Assembly: GCA_036268875.1 (NCBI GenBank)
Contig: DATATI010000055.1
Coordinates: forward strand, 1 to 64,000
Source of the DNA: Polyangia bacterium
GTDB lineage: Bacteria; Myxococcota_A; Polyangia; Fen-1088
Direction: 5' to 3'
Length of the DNA: 64,000 bases
Shown here: positions 35,157 to 53,447 of the stretch, in pieces
How the letters are laid out: every line of letters starts with the position of its first letter
Position numbering within the stretch: the stretch's first letter is position 1
Notes under the pieces: generated by a model
The model's database searches: none
Seen by the model: only the letters and a program-made list of their open reading frames with translations
Told to the model about the DNA's origin: nothing
Translations under genes and position numbers: made by a program

Positions 35157-36044
35157 CTAGATTTCCGCCAGCATGCGGCGGATGATCTTCGGCCGCCAGG
35201 CCAAGGCCTCGCGGCCCTTCGTCGACGCCGCGGCTTCGATGGCCGCCGACCGCTGATCGATGAGCTCGAACAGGATGGCGCGGTTGCGTTCGTCGCGCGG
35301 CGAACGCAGCTCGCGCTCGAGCGTCTGGCGCAGCACCGAGAGATCGTGGACCTCGCCCAGCATCGCGCCCAGCTCGGTCAGCGCCGGGCCGAGGCGCCGC
35401 GCCAGGTCGGGAGCTTGCCGGCGCAGCACCGCCACCTCCATGACCAGGCGCTTGACGGATTTTCGCAGGCCGTGCAGGCGTTCGGCGCGATCGCCGCCGT
35501 CGATGACGCGCAGAGCGGCGTCGCGCATGCGGCGGCGGGCGCGCTTGTACGCCGCTTCCAGGCCCTGGCGCAACGCGCGCCGGCCGTGACTGACCGGCCA
35601 GCGACACACCCGGCGCCGCCCTTTCTCCAGCGAGGCCACCACGTCGTTGACCCGCGTCTCGATGGTGGTGGGCGACAGGCGACGGCGCAGGCGGCTGCCG
35701 ATGTCGCGCAGACTTTGGTCAGCGCCGGCGGCCACTCGATCCGGGTTCTGCTCCAGCAGGCGGTGCAAGGTGTCGGCCTCGACGGCGACGTCACGGGCCT
35801 TGGACAGCGCCCGCGCCATCTCGCGCATCCAGCGTTCGTCGCGAGCGGCGGCCGAACCCACCTGGTGGTGCACCAGCTTGACCGCCGCGCGGGCCTTCTT
35901 CAGACGCGAGCGCACGGCGTGAACCCGCTCGTCGACGGACTGCGTGCTCTGCCGCCCGCCGTCGATGGCTTTTTTCAACTGTCCGCGCACGATGCGACGC
36001 ACGGCCTTGGCGACCGGTTCTTTGGCTTTGATCTGATAGGACAC
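35157..36044 (-). CDS. CHAD-domain protein
   Basis: 295 residues, helical and strongly basic. The CHAD signature appears as VHAVRSRLKKARAAVKLV (H-x-x-R-x-x-x-K-x-x-R) near the N-terminus and again as LHGLRKSVKRLVMEV, with HDLSVLRQTL, giving the two four-helix bundles. The positive surface binds polyphosphate; CHAD proteins associate with polyphosphate granules or act with CYTH triphosphatases, none of which is seen here. Confidence 0.87.
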   Translation of the reverse strand: MSYQIKAKEPVAKAVRRIVRGQLKKAIDGGRQSTQSVDERVHAVRSRLKKARAAVKLVHHQVGSAAARDERWMREMARALSKARDVAVEADTLHRLLEQNPDRVAAGADQSLRDIGSRLRRRLSPTTIETRVNDVVASLEKGRRRVCRWPVSHGRRALRQGLEAAYKRARRRMRDAALRVIDGGDRAERLHGLRKSVKRLVMEVAVLRRQAPDLARRLGPALTELGAMLGEVHDLSVLRQTLERELRSPRDERNRAILFELIDQRSAAIEAAASTKGREALAWRPKIIRRMLAEI

Positions 36045-36097: not shown

Positions 36098-37081
36098 TCA
36101 GGCGGCGGCGCGCGCCGCCACTTTTGCCAGCACCGCGGCATCGACGTTGCCGCCCGAGACGATCGCCACCTTGCGCCGGCCCGCCACCTGCGGCAGCGCC
36201 GCCACCGCGACCGCGCCCGCGCCCTCGGCGATGATCTTTTCATTCAAGGCCAGCGACGCCATGGTGGCGGCGATCTGTTCCTCATCGACCAGCACGACGT
36301 CATCCAGGCTGGCCGCGCACAGCGGCACCGTCAGCCGCCCCGGCCGCGCCACGCGCAGGCCGTCAGCCAGCGTCGCCGATAAAAGCGCCGACGACGAAGG
36401 GCCGGTCTGTCCCAGCCAGGCGCGGCGAAACGCCTCCAGCCCGGTCACCTGAACGCCGACCACCCGCACGCCTCGCCGCTTGCACACCGCGGCCACGCCC
36501 GCCGCCAGTCCGCCGCCGCCGATGGGAACCAGCACCACATCGGGAGCGAATGACAGCAGCTCGACGGCGACCGTCGCTTGTCCAGCGATCACGTCGAGAT
36601 CATCGAAGGGGTGCAATAAGCCCGCCCCCGACGACGACGCCAGCGCCTCTGCCCGGGACAGGCACGATTCCACGCTGTCGCCGCCCACGATCACCTGCGC
36701 GCCCAGTGCCTGGCAGCCGCGCACCTTGGCCGCCGCCGCGCCGGCCGGCACGATGATCGTCGCTGGCAGACCAAAGTGTCTAGCGGCCCACGCCACGCCC
36801 AGGCCGTGGTTGCCCGCCGACGCGCACAGCAGCGGCTGCCGCTGTCCCCGCTCCCAGCGCGCCGCCACCGCGTTGAAGGCGCCGCGAACCTTGTAGGCGC
36901 CGGTGACCTGCAGGTTCTCCAGCTTCAGGAACGCGTCGCGCCCGGGCGCCGCGTGAAGCGGCGTCGGCCTGAACACGCGGGCGATGCGCGCCGCCGCCGC
37001 GGCGATGGCGGCGTCGTCCAGGGCGACGGCAGCGGACGGTTGATGCGGGAGGTGAACAGGCACGGTCGTGGTTGCGGACAT
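36098..37081 (-). CDS. ilvA: Threonine dehydratase-like PLP enzyme
   Basis: 327 residues, fold-type II. LKLENLQVTGAYKVRGAFNAV holds the Schiff-base Lys (in the S/T-x-K-x-R-G motif, here GAYKVRG). SAGNHGLGVAWAARHFG and VPIGGGGLAAGVAAVCK (PLP-phosphate tetraglycine) follow. No ACT regulatory domain, as in short threonine ammonia-lyases. Deaminates Thr (or Ser) to 2-oxobutyrate, the first step to isoleucine. The ATG at 37081 has GGAG upstream. A hairpin terminator and an Ile-rich leader peptide lie just upstream, suggesting attenuation and therefore a biosynthetic role. Confidence 0.85.
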   Translation of the reverse strand: MSATTTVPVHLPHQPSAAVALDDAAIAAAAARIARVFRPTPLHAAPGRDAFLKLENLQVTGAYKVRGAFNAVAARWERGQRQPLLCASAGNHGLGVAWAARHFGLPATIIVPAGAAAAKVRGCQALGAQVIVGGDSVESCLSRAEALASSSGAGLLHPFDDLDVIAGQATVAVELLSFAPDVVLVPIGGGGLAAGVAAVCKRRGVRVVGVQVTGLEAFRRAWLGQTGPSSSALLSATLADGLRVARPGRLTVPLCAASLDDVVLVDEEQIAATMASLALNEKIIAEGAGAVAVAALPQVAGRRKVAIVSGGNVDAAVLAKVAARAAA

Positions 37082-37137: not shown

Positions 37138-37172
37138 AAAAAAACCCCGCGACCTGAAGAGGTGCGGGGTTT
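37138..37172 (-). terminator. Leader terminator (attenuator) upstream of ilvA
   Basis: On the minus strand: AAACCCCGCACCT, loop CTTC, AGGT-C-GCGGGGTTT, then continuing T (seven Ts in all). The stem is about 13 bp with a single bulged C. It lies 56 nt upstream of the ilvA start and downstream of the leader peptide stop, so it would end transcription before ilvA unless disrupted. Confidence 0.8.
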
Positions 37173-37190
37173 CGAATCGGCTCTTGGTGA

Positions 37191-37262
37191 CTAGCGCAGC
37201 GAACCCCCACCTCGTCGGCGAATGCCGATAATGGACATGAGGGAAATCGACTGGCGCGGCAT
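37191..37262 (-). CDS. Ile-rich leader peptide of the ilvA attenuator
   Basis: A minus-strand frame ending in MSIIGIRRRGGGSLR-stop; codons 37232-37221 read ATT ATC GGC ATT. Beginning at the ATG at 37262 it has 23 codons with four Ile and one Leu among its middle ten; the alternative ATG at 37238 gives 15 codons. Neither start has a strong Shine-Dalgarno. The Gly-Gly-Gly-Ser codons (37213-37202) can pair with the 5' arm of the terminator (37171-37159) over 12 bp with one bulged G. Stalling at Ile codons would free this segment to form an antiterminator; reading on to the stop would mask it. Confidence 0.65.
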   Translation of the reverse strand: MPRQSISLMSIIGIRRRGGGSLR

Positions 37263-37271
37263 CGAGGCTCT

Positions 37272-37300
37272 TACGGTGCCACAACCACGGAGGCAGTCAA
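37272..37300 (-). promoter_or_regulatory. Candidate promoter of the ilvA leader
   Basis: TTGACT (37300-37295) is a 5/6 match to the sigma-70 -35 hexamer. About 17-18 nt further on lies a weak -10 (ACCGTA/CCGTAA). Transcription would start near 37265, just ahead of the leader ATG, which would make the 37238 start the better-spaced one. Confidence 0.35.
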
Positions 37301-37335
37301 CCGACGCGGTTCCGGCGGCCTTCGAATGGGCTTGC

Positions 37336-38856
37336 TCACCTCCCGATCGAACCGCCCGGCTGGGTGGGCCCGTGCCCGGGACCAAGCACCTCTTTGAGGG
37401 CAATCGCGTAGTCGAACGGCCCCTGGCTTTGATCAGGCGTGTGGCAACCCAGGCAGATCAGCGGATCGACGTGCAGCGACGTCCCTTCTTTCTTTTTTAT
37501 CGACCGCACGTGCGCCGCGCTGGGCCCGTGGCACGCCTCGCAGCCGACGTCGCCAAAGTTGTAGGCCAGCGTGTTCATGTTGGCGGTGCCGCCCGGTTGC
37601 ATGAAGGCAAAGCTGTGGCAGCCCACGCAGGCCGGATCGCGCTCGCGCCCTTTCTTTTTCAGCGTGGCCATGGCGTTCGCGTGGTCGGTCAGGTTCCACT
37701 GCTGGGCTTGCGCCGGGTGGCACATGGCGCAGGCCCGGGTGCTGGCATAGCTCCACACCTCGAAGACCTCTCGCTGCGGCTTGGCGTCGGGGTGTTTCTT
37801 GTCCGACGCGGGATTGGTCAAGCCCAGCACCGGGGTGGTGTCGGCGGTGATCAGCAACTGAACGGCGAACTGTTTGCGCACGGTCGGAAAAAGAATCTGC
37901 AGGCGATCGTCGAAGCGAAAATGCAGCGGGTCGCTGGGCGCGGGGCGCAGGTCGATGCGCCCGATCCGGGTGCCGCCCGCGCCGGCCACCAGCAAAAGCG
38001 GCGGCTTGGGATCGTGCGCCACCGGACCGCCGGCGACCGTCGGCTCGGCATGGGCCGGGACCAGCAGATCGATCCCGGGCGCGGCGGCGGCGATGGCGCG
38101 CGCCCGGTCGGCGCCGCCGGCCGCATGCACCAGGCCCACCACCAGCTCGACGCCGGCCGCGCGCAGATCGCGCACCGCCGCCTGGGCGGCGGCCACCGGA
38201 TCGCCGACGGTGAACTTCATTCGCTGCGCCAGCGCCGCGCCGTCGGGTCCAAGCTCGACCACGCCGAAGACGCCGATCTTGTGGTCCGCCGCCTGGAACA
38301 CGCGCGTGCCGGCGAACAGCGGTTTTCCGTCGCTGCCGCTGACGTTGGCCAGCACCACCGGCAACTTTGTGTCGCCCAGCCACTTCCGCAGCGTCGCGCT
38401 GTCGACGCCCAGCTCCCGCTCGCCCAGCGTCACGGCGTCGACGTCCATGCGCTGGTAGGCGTCCAGGATCAGCCGCGCCCGGCGTTCGAAAGCGCCCGGC
38501 GTGGCGAGCGCCGGATCATCGGTGGCGGGCAGGAAATCGCCGGCGTCCACCTCGACCACCGCCTTGGCGTCGAGGCGCGCCTGATCGACCAGCGTCGCCC
38601 GCCGGGCCAGCCCGCCCGGCGCGTTGGGCGGCGACGTCGGCGGTGACACCGCACCCCGCACGCCGGCCGTATAGAAGAAGGCCAGGTCAGCGCCGGGCGC
38701 GAACGGCGCGTTGGAGCTGGCCGCCGCGTTCACCCCCCTCGGCGACGGACCGGCGCCGCCGGATTTGTTCGCGCGCGAACAAGCGCCGAACAGCGCCACC
38801 CCGAACATCAAACAGAAGGCGCACGCACCGAGGGGTGGCCTTGCAACAACAGCCAT
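37336..38856 (-). CDS. Tetraheme c-type cytochrome lipoprotein with 5'-nucleotidase-like domain
   Basis: 506 residues. Lipobox LFGAC (C26). Residues ~55-330 follow the order of a UshA/5'-nucleotidase metallophosphoesterase, but the metal-ligand motifs are altered: VEVDAGDFLPAT (D and D kept), then GERELG where N-H-E is expected, ANVSG, LVHAAGG, and PAHAEP where G-H-T-H is expected. Residues 376-472 hold four CxxCH heme sites: CAMCH, CVGCH, CEACH, CLGCH. The cytochrome end resembles cytochrome c554-like modules. It would act as a periplasmic or surface electron carrier. The phosphoesterase activity is probably lost (inference). 21 nt downstream of the flavin oxidase gene on the same strand. 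Confidence 0.84.
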   Translation of the reverse strand: MAVVARPPLGACAFCLMFGVALFGACSRANKSGGAGPSPRGVNAAASSNAPFAPGADLAFFYTAGVRGAVSPPTSPPNAPGGLARRATLVDQARLDAKAVVEVDAGDFLPATDDPALATPGAFERRARLILDAYQRMDVDAVTLGERELGVDSATLRKWLGDTKLPVVLANVSGSDGKPLFAGTRVFQAADHKIGVFGVVELGPDGAALAQRMKFTVGDPVAAAQAAVRDLRAAGVELVVGLVHAAGGADRARAIAAAAPGIDLLVPAHAEPTVAGGPVAHDPKPPLLLVAGAGGTRIGRIDLRPAPSDPLHFRFDDRLQILFPTVRKQFAVQLLITADTTPVLGLTNPASDKKHPDAKPQREVFEVWSYASTRACAMCHPAQAQQWNLTDHANAMATLKKKGRERDPACVGCHSFAFMQPGGTANMNTLAYNFGDVGCEACHGPSAAHVRSIKKKEGTSLHVDPLICLGCHTPDQSQGPFDYAIALKEVLGPGHGPTQPGGSIGR

Positions 38857-53365: not shown

Positions 53366-53447
53366 GCGAGGATGGCGGAACTGGTAGACGCGCCAGACTT
53401 AGGATCTGGTTCCGAAAGGAGTGGAGGTTCAAGTCCTCTTCCTCGCA
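53366..53447 (+). tRNA. tRNA-Leu (anticodon TAG)
   Basis: Acceptor GCGAGGA pairs with TCCTCGC (53440-53446) followed by discriminator A; CCA is not encoded. The anticodon arm CCAGA-CTTAGGA-TCTGG gives TAG, reading CUN leucine codons. A long variable arm (TTCCGAAAGGAG region) fits a class II Leu tRNA, and the T-arm has GGTTCAAGTCC. 82 nt. Its 5' half is duplicated 4,140 bp upstream, showing it is the island's insertion target. Confidence 0.93.

Follow-up and report, generated by a model that had tools for sequence, protein, structure and literature searches.

A putative isoleucine-sensing transcription attenuator in front of a solitary ilvA gene and its relatives in the class Polyangia

The segment 37300-37138 on the minus strand of the 64,000-nucleotide stretch of DNA analyzed here (the window; Polyangia bacterium, contig DATATI010000055.1) is very probably an isoleucine-sensing, ribosome-mediated transcription attenuator of the ilvA gene, a reading to which we assign a probability of about 0.9; its transcription start site, ribosome stalling and response to isoleucine are predicted from the sequence. 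An isoleucine-type attenuator had been suggested here in a preliminary description, and the suggestion is supported by mutually exclusive stems, conservation and codon specificity, regulation by isoleucine itself being the predicted part.

Organization of the leader region

The whole element (37300-37138, minus strand) consists of a TTGACT box, a 23-codon leader, an antiterminator arm and a terminator, all in front of ilvA. The box (37295..37300, minus strand) is the putative -35 element of the leader promoter, with TTGAC located 38 nt upstream of the leader ATG. The leader peptide ORF MPRQSISLMSIIGIRRRGGGSLR (37191..37262, minus strand) most likely starts with ATG at 37262 and ends with TAG at 37193-37191. 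Four of its 23 codons encode isoleucine (ATT 37247-37245, ATT 37232-37230, ATC 37229-37227 and ATT 37223-37221, minus strand), and three of them fall within four consecutive codons; ORFs with three isoleucines in four codons occurred only five times in 76 kb of intergenic DNA when both strands were counted. The preliminary description had recognized the codons ATT ATC GGC ATT, which belong to the stretch ATG TCC ATT ATC GGC ATT (37238-37221, minus strand) of this leader. These codons and the TAG stop hold, and the relatives indicate ATG 37262 as the more likely start than 37238.

Four segments on the minus strand make up the alternative structures. Segment 1 (CCCUCAUGUCC, 37234..37244) pairs in the minimum free energy fold with segment 2 if no ribosome lies on top of it. 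Segment 2 (GAGGTGGGGGTT, 37202..37213), also kept in the relatives, is the 5' arm of the antiterminator. Segment 3 (AACCCCGCACCTC, 37159..37171) serves both as the 3' arm of the antiterminator and as the 5' arm of the terminator, as indicated by sequence, folds and relatives. Segment 4 (AGGTCGCGGGGTT, 37143..37155), recognized by folds, the terminator scan and relatives, is the 3' arm of the terminator, with a run of seven T at 37138..37144. The ilvA-like threonine dehydratase gene follows on the same strand (36098..37081), with ATG at 37081 and the Shine-Dalgarno sequence AAAGGAG at 37095-37089. The TTGACT box, the isoleucine frame, the stop, the hairpin with seven Ts and the ilvA start of the preliminary description were all found in the sequence.

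Mutually exclusive secondary structures

The RNA from 37265 to 37130 folded at -55.2 kcal/mol (z -3.3), and no shuffled sequence was equally low. In the minimum free energy structure, segment 1 is paired with segment 2 and the terminator is formed; the alternative structure pairs segments 2 and 3. Folding of the window leader with competing structures thus gave both terminator and antiterminator, which exclude each other as had been proposed. The 12-bp complementarity with one bulge that had been noted between segment 2 and the 5' arm of the terminator is also present (p about 0.003). The terminator hairpin (-19.6 kcal/mol, followed by the T-run) lies between the leader ORF and ilvA. The antiterminator duplex calculated with the full arm (-20.4 kcal/mol) was matched by 0.26% of 5000 shuffled upstream sequences and equalled in 0.3% of random genomic windows. 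As a genomic background for terminators, 861 kb of the same genome was scanned, which gave 15 clean terminators outside genes; that in the window alone was significantly complementary to its upstream sequence (-18.2 kcal/mol, 0/300 shuffles).

Segment 2 of the window lacks a C conserved in the family, so that one base of segment 3 is bulged; otherwise both stems have the strength typical of the family. The flanking change to TT in segment 2 is mirrored by AA in segment 3 and TT in segment 4, and the pairing is thereby kept.

Proposed mechanism

Transcription would start at or beside the leader start codon, and the first ribosome, loading on an mRNA with little or no 5' untranslated sequence, would trail RNA polymerase. 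When Ile-tRNA is scarce, the ribosome is predicted to stall at the ATT/ATC codons of 37232-37221 and to cover segment 1; with 37232 or 37229 in the A site, it would leave 37213-37202 free. Segment 2 could then pair with segment 3, the terminator would not form and ilvA would be transcribed. When isoleucine is plentiful, the ribosome would reach the stop codon at 37193-37191 and cover most of segment 2, so that segments 3 and 4 would form the terminator and the transcript would end at approximately 37138. If the leader is not translated at all, segments 1 and 2 are expected to pair, and the terminator would form as well.

The computed folds are consistent with these states. The antiterminator formed when everything 5' of 37217 was masked and the RNA ended at 37155 (-24.5), and the terminator formed when the ribosome was set at the stop codon (-21.5). 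Pairing of segment 2 with a protector in the leader RNA that would lie under the stalled ribosome was also found in the computed folds. As the entirely free RNA 37217-37138 favored the terminator (-31.7), the switch must be kinetic, like those of known attenuators.

The ilvA gene and its homologues

The ilvA gene of the window (P0001) encodes an intact 327-aa threonine dehydratase of the PALP fold without an ACT domain. The PALP domain scored far over its cut-off, and the best NCBIfam model was threonine dehydratase PRK08813 with 312.8 bits, under the cut-off of 489. The protein carries the YKVRG, SAGNH and GGGGLAAG motifs. One clear paralogue (40% identical) is encoded on contig C79 of the same genome and has a close relative in another genome of the same family (G011). 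No close relative of P0001 was found in its own family (best 43%) or among the loci from the genome contig scan (best segment 46%), and the 318 genomes of the class contained only two ilvA homologues at the 53% level, in G251 and G317. That of G251 is the last gene of an ilvD-ilvC-ilvG-ilvM-ilvA operon whose products include an IlvM-like subunit and a synthase of the IlvG type, and that of G317 sits between ilvE and ilvD in an ilvE-A-D operon. In the ilvA tree, read without the row of G279, which was mistranslated, the window gene was placed beside these two genes and apart from the rest (fork 99/99).

Both operons are headed by an element of the same organization, namely ...AGCAGCATTATTGCCATTATTTCCGGCATTCGTTGCGAGGTGCGCGCCTAG...CCCCGCACCTCGGAAGAGGGAGCGGGGTTTTT upstream of ilvD in G251 and ATGATTATTATCGGCGACGAGGTGCGGGCACTCTGA...CCCCGCACCTCGGAAGAGGCGGCGGGGTTTT upstream of ilvE in G317. 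The relatives have in common the leader codons, the terminator arm CCCCGCACC and a GAGGTGCGGGC-type antiterminator arm, and, to judge from these sequences, the window element is plainly homologous to those heading the G251 and G317 ilv operons. Alignment with the two closest ilvA homologues and with further elements of the class thus revealed the conservation of isoleucine codons and exclusive stems that had been named as a check. Genomes of the window's own family yielded no close ilvA orthologue and no convincing copy of the element, which limited the test of conservation to comparisons between families of the class.

The element might have been inherited together with ilvA from an ilv operon and have since become weak or non-functional through decay of the -10 box, with ilvA served by read-through. 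The -10 box of the window is indeed poor (at best 3/6, with a 19-nt spacer), segment 2 is one base off the family consensus, and the remaining operon genes are absent from the locus. Against such a relic, the open frame, the isoleucine run, the stop codon and both stems of family-typical strength are all intact, the TT change in segment 2 is matched in segments 3 and 4, and ilvA itself keeps its Shine-Dalgarno sequence and conserved motifs. We regard a relic as improbable, and a working attenuator as the better account.

Distribution of the attenuator family

The elements of G251 and G317, the first two relatives, were found independently via their ilvA genes. A covariance model (R1) built from these two and the window element found further elements in the class, and a second model (R2) built from nine elements was searched in the 318 class genomes. 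R2 gave 26 matches at E<=1e-5, among which 23 precede ilvA, ilvD, ilvB/G, ilvC/N or leuA, one is cut by a contig end and is a near-duplicate of the G317 element, and two (G243 and G265) look like plain terminators. Weaker matches that were plain terminators or covered the terminator only were left uncounted. The window copy, which belongs to the training set, scored 74.8 bits with R2. Strong matches were confined to the class when 379 genomes drawn from the phylum were considered.

The alignment analyzed further (A6) comprises 26 elements from 23 genomes and includes three weaker matches located before branched-chain genes. Both stems formed in all 26 elements, with -16.7 to -32.1 kcal/mol for the antiterminator and -19.1 to -26.7 kcal/mol for the terminator, and segment 2 was mostly paired with upstream sequence in 25 of them. 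In the antiterminator, 94.6% of the alignment cells were paired, compared to 37-64% when the arms were slid, with one clear A-U/G-C exchange. In the terminator, 91.6% were paired (64% or less when slid) with double changes in three pairs, although the terminator counts are biased toward the model, as A6 was fitted to a model that contains the terminator and not the antiterminator; both sets of counts come from related sequences. Because MAFFT placed segment 2 wrongly in three distant members, the model-fitted alignment was preferred.

These results also bear on whether the hairpin simply terminates transcription of the UshA-like/cytochrome c gene upstream, with ilvA expressed by read-through or from another promoter and the leader ORF and complementarity being coincidental. 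The upstream gene (37336-38856) is transcribed in the same direction, and the terminator lies 163 nt beyond its end. The same genome has a comparably strong terminator 197 nt downstream of a TonB-receptor gene and 53 nt upstream of a comM-like gene; because of this case, how far the terminator lies from the preceding stop codon is not decisive. An ordinary terminator would, however, hardly recur before ilv/leu genes with many different surroundings, together with both stems and codons that fit the gene. Its match to the antiterminator arm is better than that of 99.7% of shuffles, and none of the other 14 clean terminators was significant. We therefore consider a coincidence of this kind very unlikely and retain the attenuator.

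No attenuator was seen at the other branched-chain genes of the window's genome, and there were no terminators upstream of ilvB, leuA and ilvC in the same family. Ile/Val-rich ORFs before ilvB in this family were rejected as leader candidates, as they overlap a conserved block that resembles a promoter and their reading frames are not conserved. The block, similar to TGTGATACAA, is kept upstream of ilvB in several same-family genomes (loci L182-L196) and is probably a promoter.

Promoter and translation start of the leader

Each of the 26 elements has TTGAC 35-43 nt ahead of an ATG or GTG that is in frame with the leader, as compared with 1.2% of random positions (36-43 range). The spacing is 38 nt in the window and in G279, G280 and G281, three genomes of one genus. 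When the elements were aligned on TTGAC (counted from 0), position 24 was A in 20/26 and position 28 was T in 15/26, corresponding to TTGACn-N17-TAnnnT. This pattern has been reported for leaderless transcripts in Streptomyces, where such transcripts with TTGACn and TAnnnT promoters are common (PMC8079986). The mRNA from which the leader peptide is translated is probably leaderless or nearly so, and the conserved TTGAC-to-start spacing places the leader start of the window at 37262. The lack of a good Shine-Dalgarno sequence for the leader, previously regarded as a weak point, loses its force with the leaderless start that this spacing suggests.

Leader codons and controlled genes

The codon content of the leaders was compared over the 13 codons before segment 2. 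Isoleucine accounted for 81% of the Ile, Leu and Val codons before units containing ilvA, and for 24% elsewhere. Isoleucine leaders with at most one Leu or Val preceded five of six ilvA-containing units and none of the 20 others (p=9e-5, relatedness ignored), while leaders before ilvD, ilvB or leuA had leucine, valine and isoleucine codons. Two types coexist in each of G279, G280 and G281: the isoleucine leader MRIARPTGLIIIIGGKVRA or a close relative precedes ilvA, and the leader before the ilvD/ilvC genes is Leu/Ile-rich and has GCGPP plus one residue at its end. The predicted leader codons thus track the controlled gene, even inside one genome. The isoleucine codon was ATT in 51 of 66 cases (77%) in the leaders, compared with 11% of isoleucine codons in the window's genome; according to modelling, sensitive attenuation needs particular synonymous codons (PMC1183508).

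The ilvA genes under the isoleucine attenuator in G279, G280 and G281 are solitary and full-length. An attenuator on a solitary ilvA had been called unusual in the preliminary description; the window is not unique in this respect, as these three further genomes of the class have one. The enzymes of G279 and G281 are of the full-length biosynthetic type (TIGR01124), in contrast to the short enzyme of the window, and the isoleucine switch thus serves two ilvA lineages. The ilvD frame following the mixed leader (L311 511-1900 and L310) looked shortened or broken in G279 and G280 and was intact in G281.

Relation to known attenuators

The best-known cases of leader-peptide attenuation are those of enterobacteria and actinobacteria. 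The ilvGMEDA attenuator of enterobacteria (ilvL) combines a leader peptide containing branched-chain codons with mutually exclusive antiterminator and terminator stems in the control of the ilv pathway. The elements described here share the branched-chain leader codons, the exclusive stems and ilv control, and the G251 element heads an ilvDCGMA operon. They differ in that the isoleucine-only run of the window serves a solitary ilvA, that no Rfam family corresponds to them and that translation is probably leaderless. The operon ilvGMEDA is listed among attenuated operons (PMC1183508). Actinobacterial ilvB and leuA leaders similarly have short ORFs with runs of Ile, Val and Leu before branched-chain genes (PMC1262725, PMC8079986), but the ilvB ORFs overlap the terminator hairpin and their mode of regulation is unclear according to PMC1262725, which does not mention ilvA.

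No Rfam model of amino-acid leaders, T-box elements or riboswitches matched the window at its gathering score, and no Rfam model did so in 20 loci, 19 of which carry elements of this family. Attenuators have been described in proteobacteria, firmicutes and actinobacteria, and the papers searched, the survey of proteobacterial attenuators by Vitreschak et al. (2004) not among them, contained no account of the present family. We thus regard it as a new sequence family of a known kind: the mechanism is textbook ribosome-mediated attenuation, and what is new is the family. A gene for a small regulatory RNA that acts at other sites, equipped with a promoter and terminator of its own, would account for the promoter-like box, the compact fold, the terminator and a weak sub-threshold likeness to models such as sX13, but is extremely unlikely, as those models scored far under their gathering scores and the element contains a conserved reading frame and is linked, in many genomes, to the branched-chain genes that follow it.

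In a metagenome-assembled genome of Candidatus Eremiobacterota, an ilvA homologue is preceded by the Ile-rich leader MYVWSSPIIAGIIIAVPSGRRAASA and a strong terminator (L088 2830-2965), as in the window. Unlike the window, this locus has neither a strong antiterminator to the 5' arm of the terminator (-10.6 kcal/mol) nor the family consensus, so that its leader is likely of independent origin and represents a possible independent isoleucine attenuator in another phylum.

Taken together, the elements likely belong to a class-wide family of branched-chain attenuators with leaderless leaders, in which the switch was kept and the codons were fitted to the controlled gene, and which remained with single genes, or was transferred to them, once operons had come apart, as in the window. 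One conserved switch would then serve several branched-chain genes, its codons changing with the target gene, in a class for which we found no such report. The differently tuned copies, sometimes two per genome, offer natural experiments on the evolution of attenuator specificity, and the covariance model can annotate these operons with high specificity. The family would also allow attenuation by a leaderless leader peptide to be tested directly in GC-rich bacteria.

Neighboring genes and other observations

A search with the leader DNA in 59 relatives gave a single match, 37291-37324 (about 34-36 bp, 2 gaps, 89%), to a VOC/glyoxalase gene of G002. The matching region, on the reverse strand, is present twice in G002, and the match overlaps the -35 box; as the window has no other trace of a VOC/glyoxalase gene, the match was treated as probably due to chance. 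On contig C34 of genome G000 (L142), the 3' end of the TonB-receptor gene is seemingly duplicated past its stop (86028-86315), and the strong terminator before the comM-like gene follows this duplication. Both threonine dehydratase paralogues adjoin a phosphoesterase/cytochrome c gene, which is co-directional in the window (37336-38856, product UshA-like by NCBIfam) and convergent at the other locus (L034 2481-3929). A gene for a CHAD-domain protein (35157-36044) lies directly downstream of ilvA on the same strand, and a tRNA gene is located at 53366-53447 on the plus strand.
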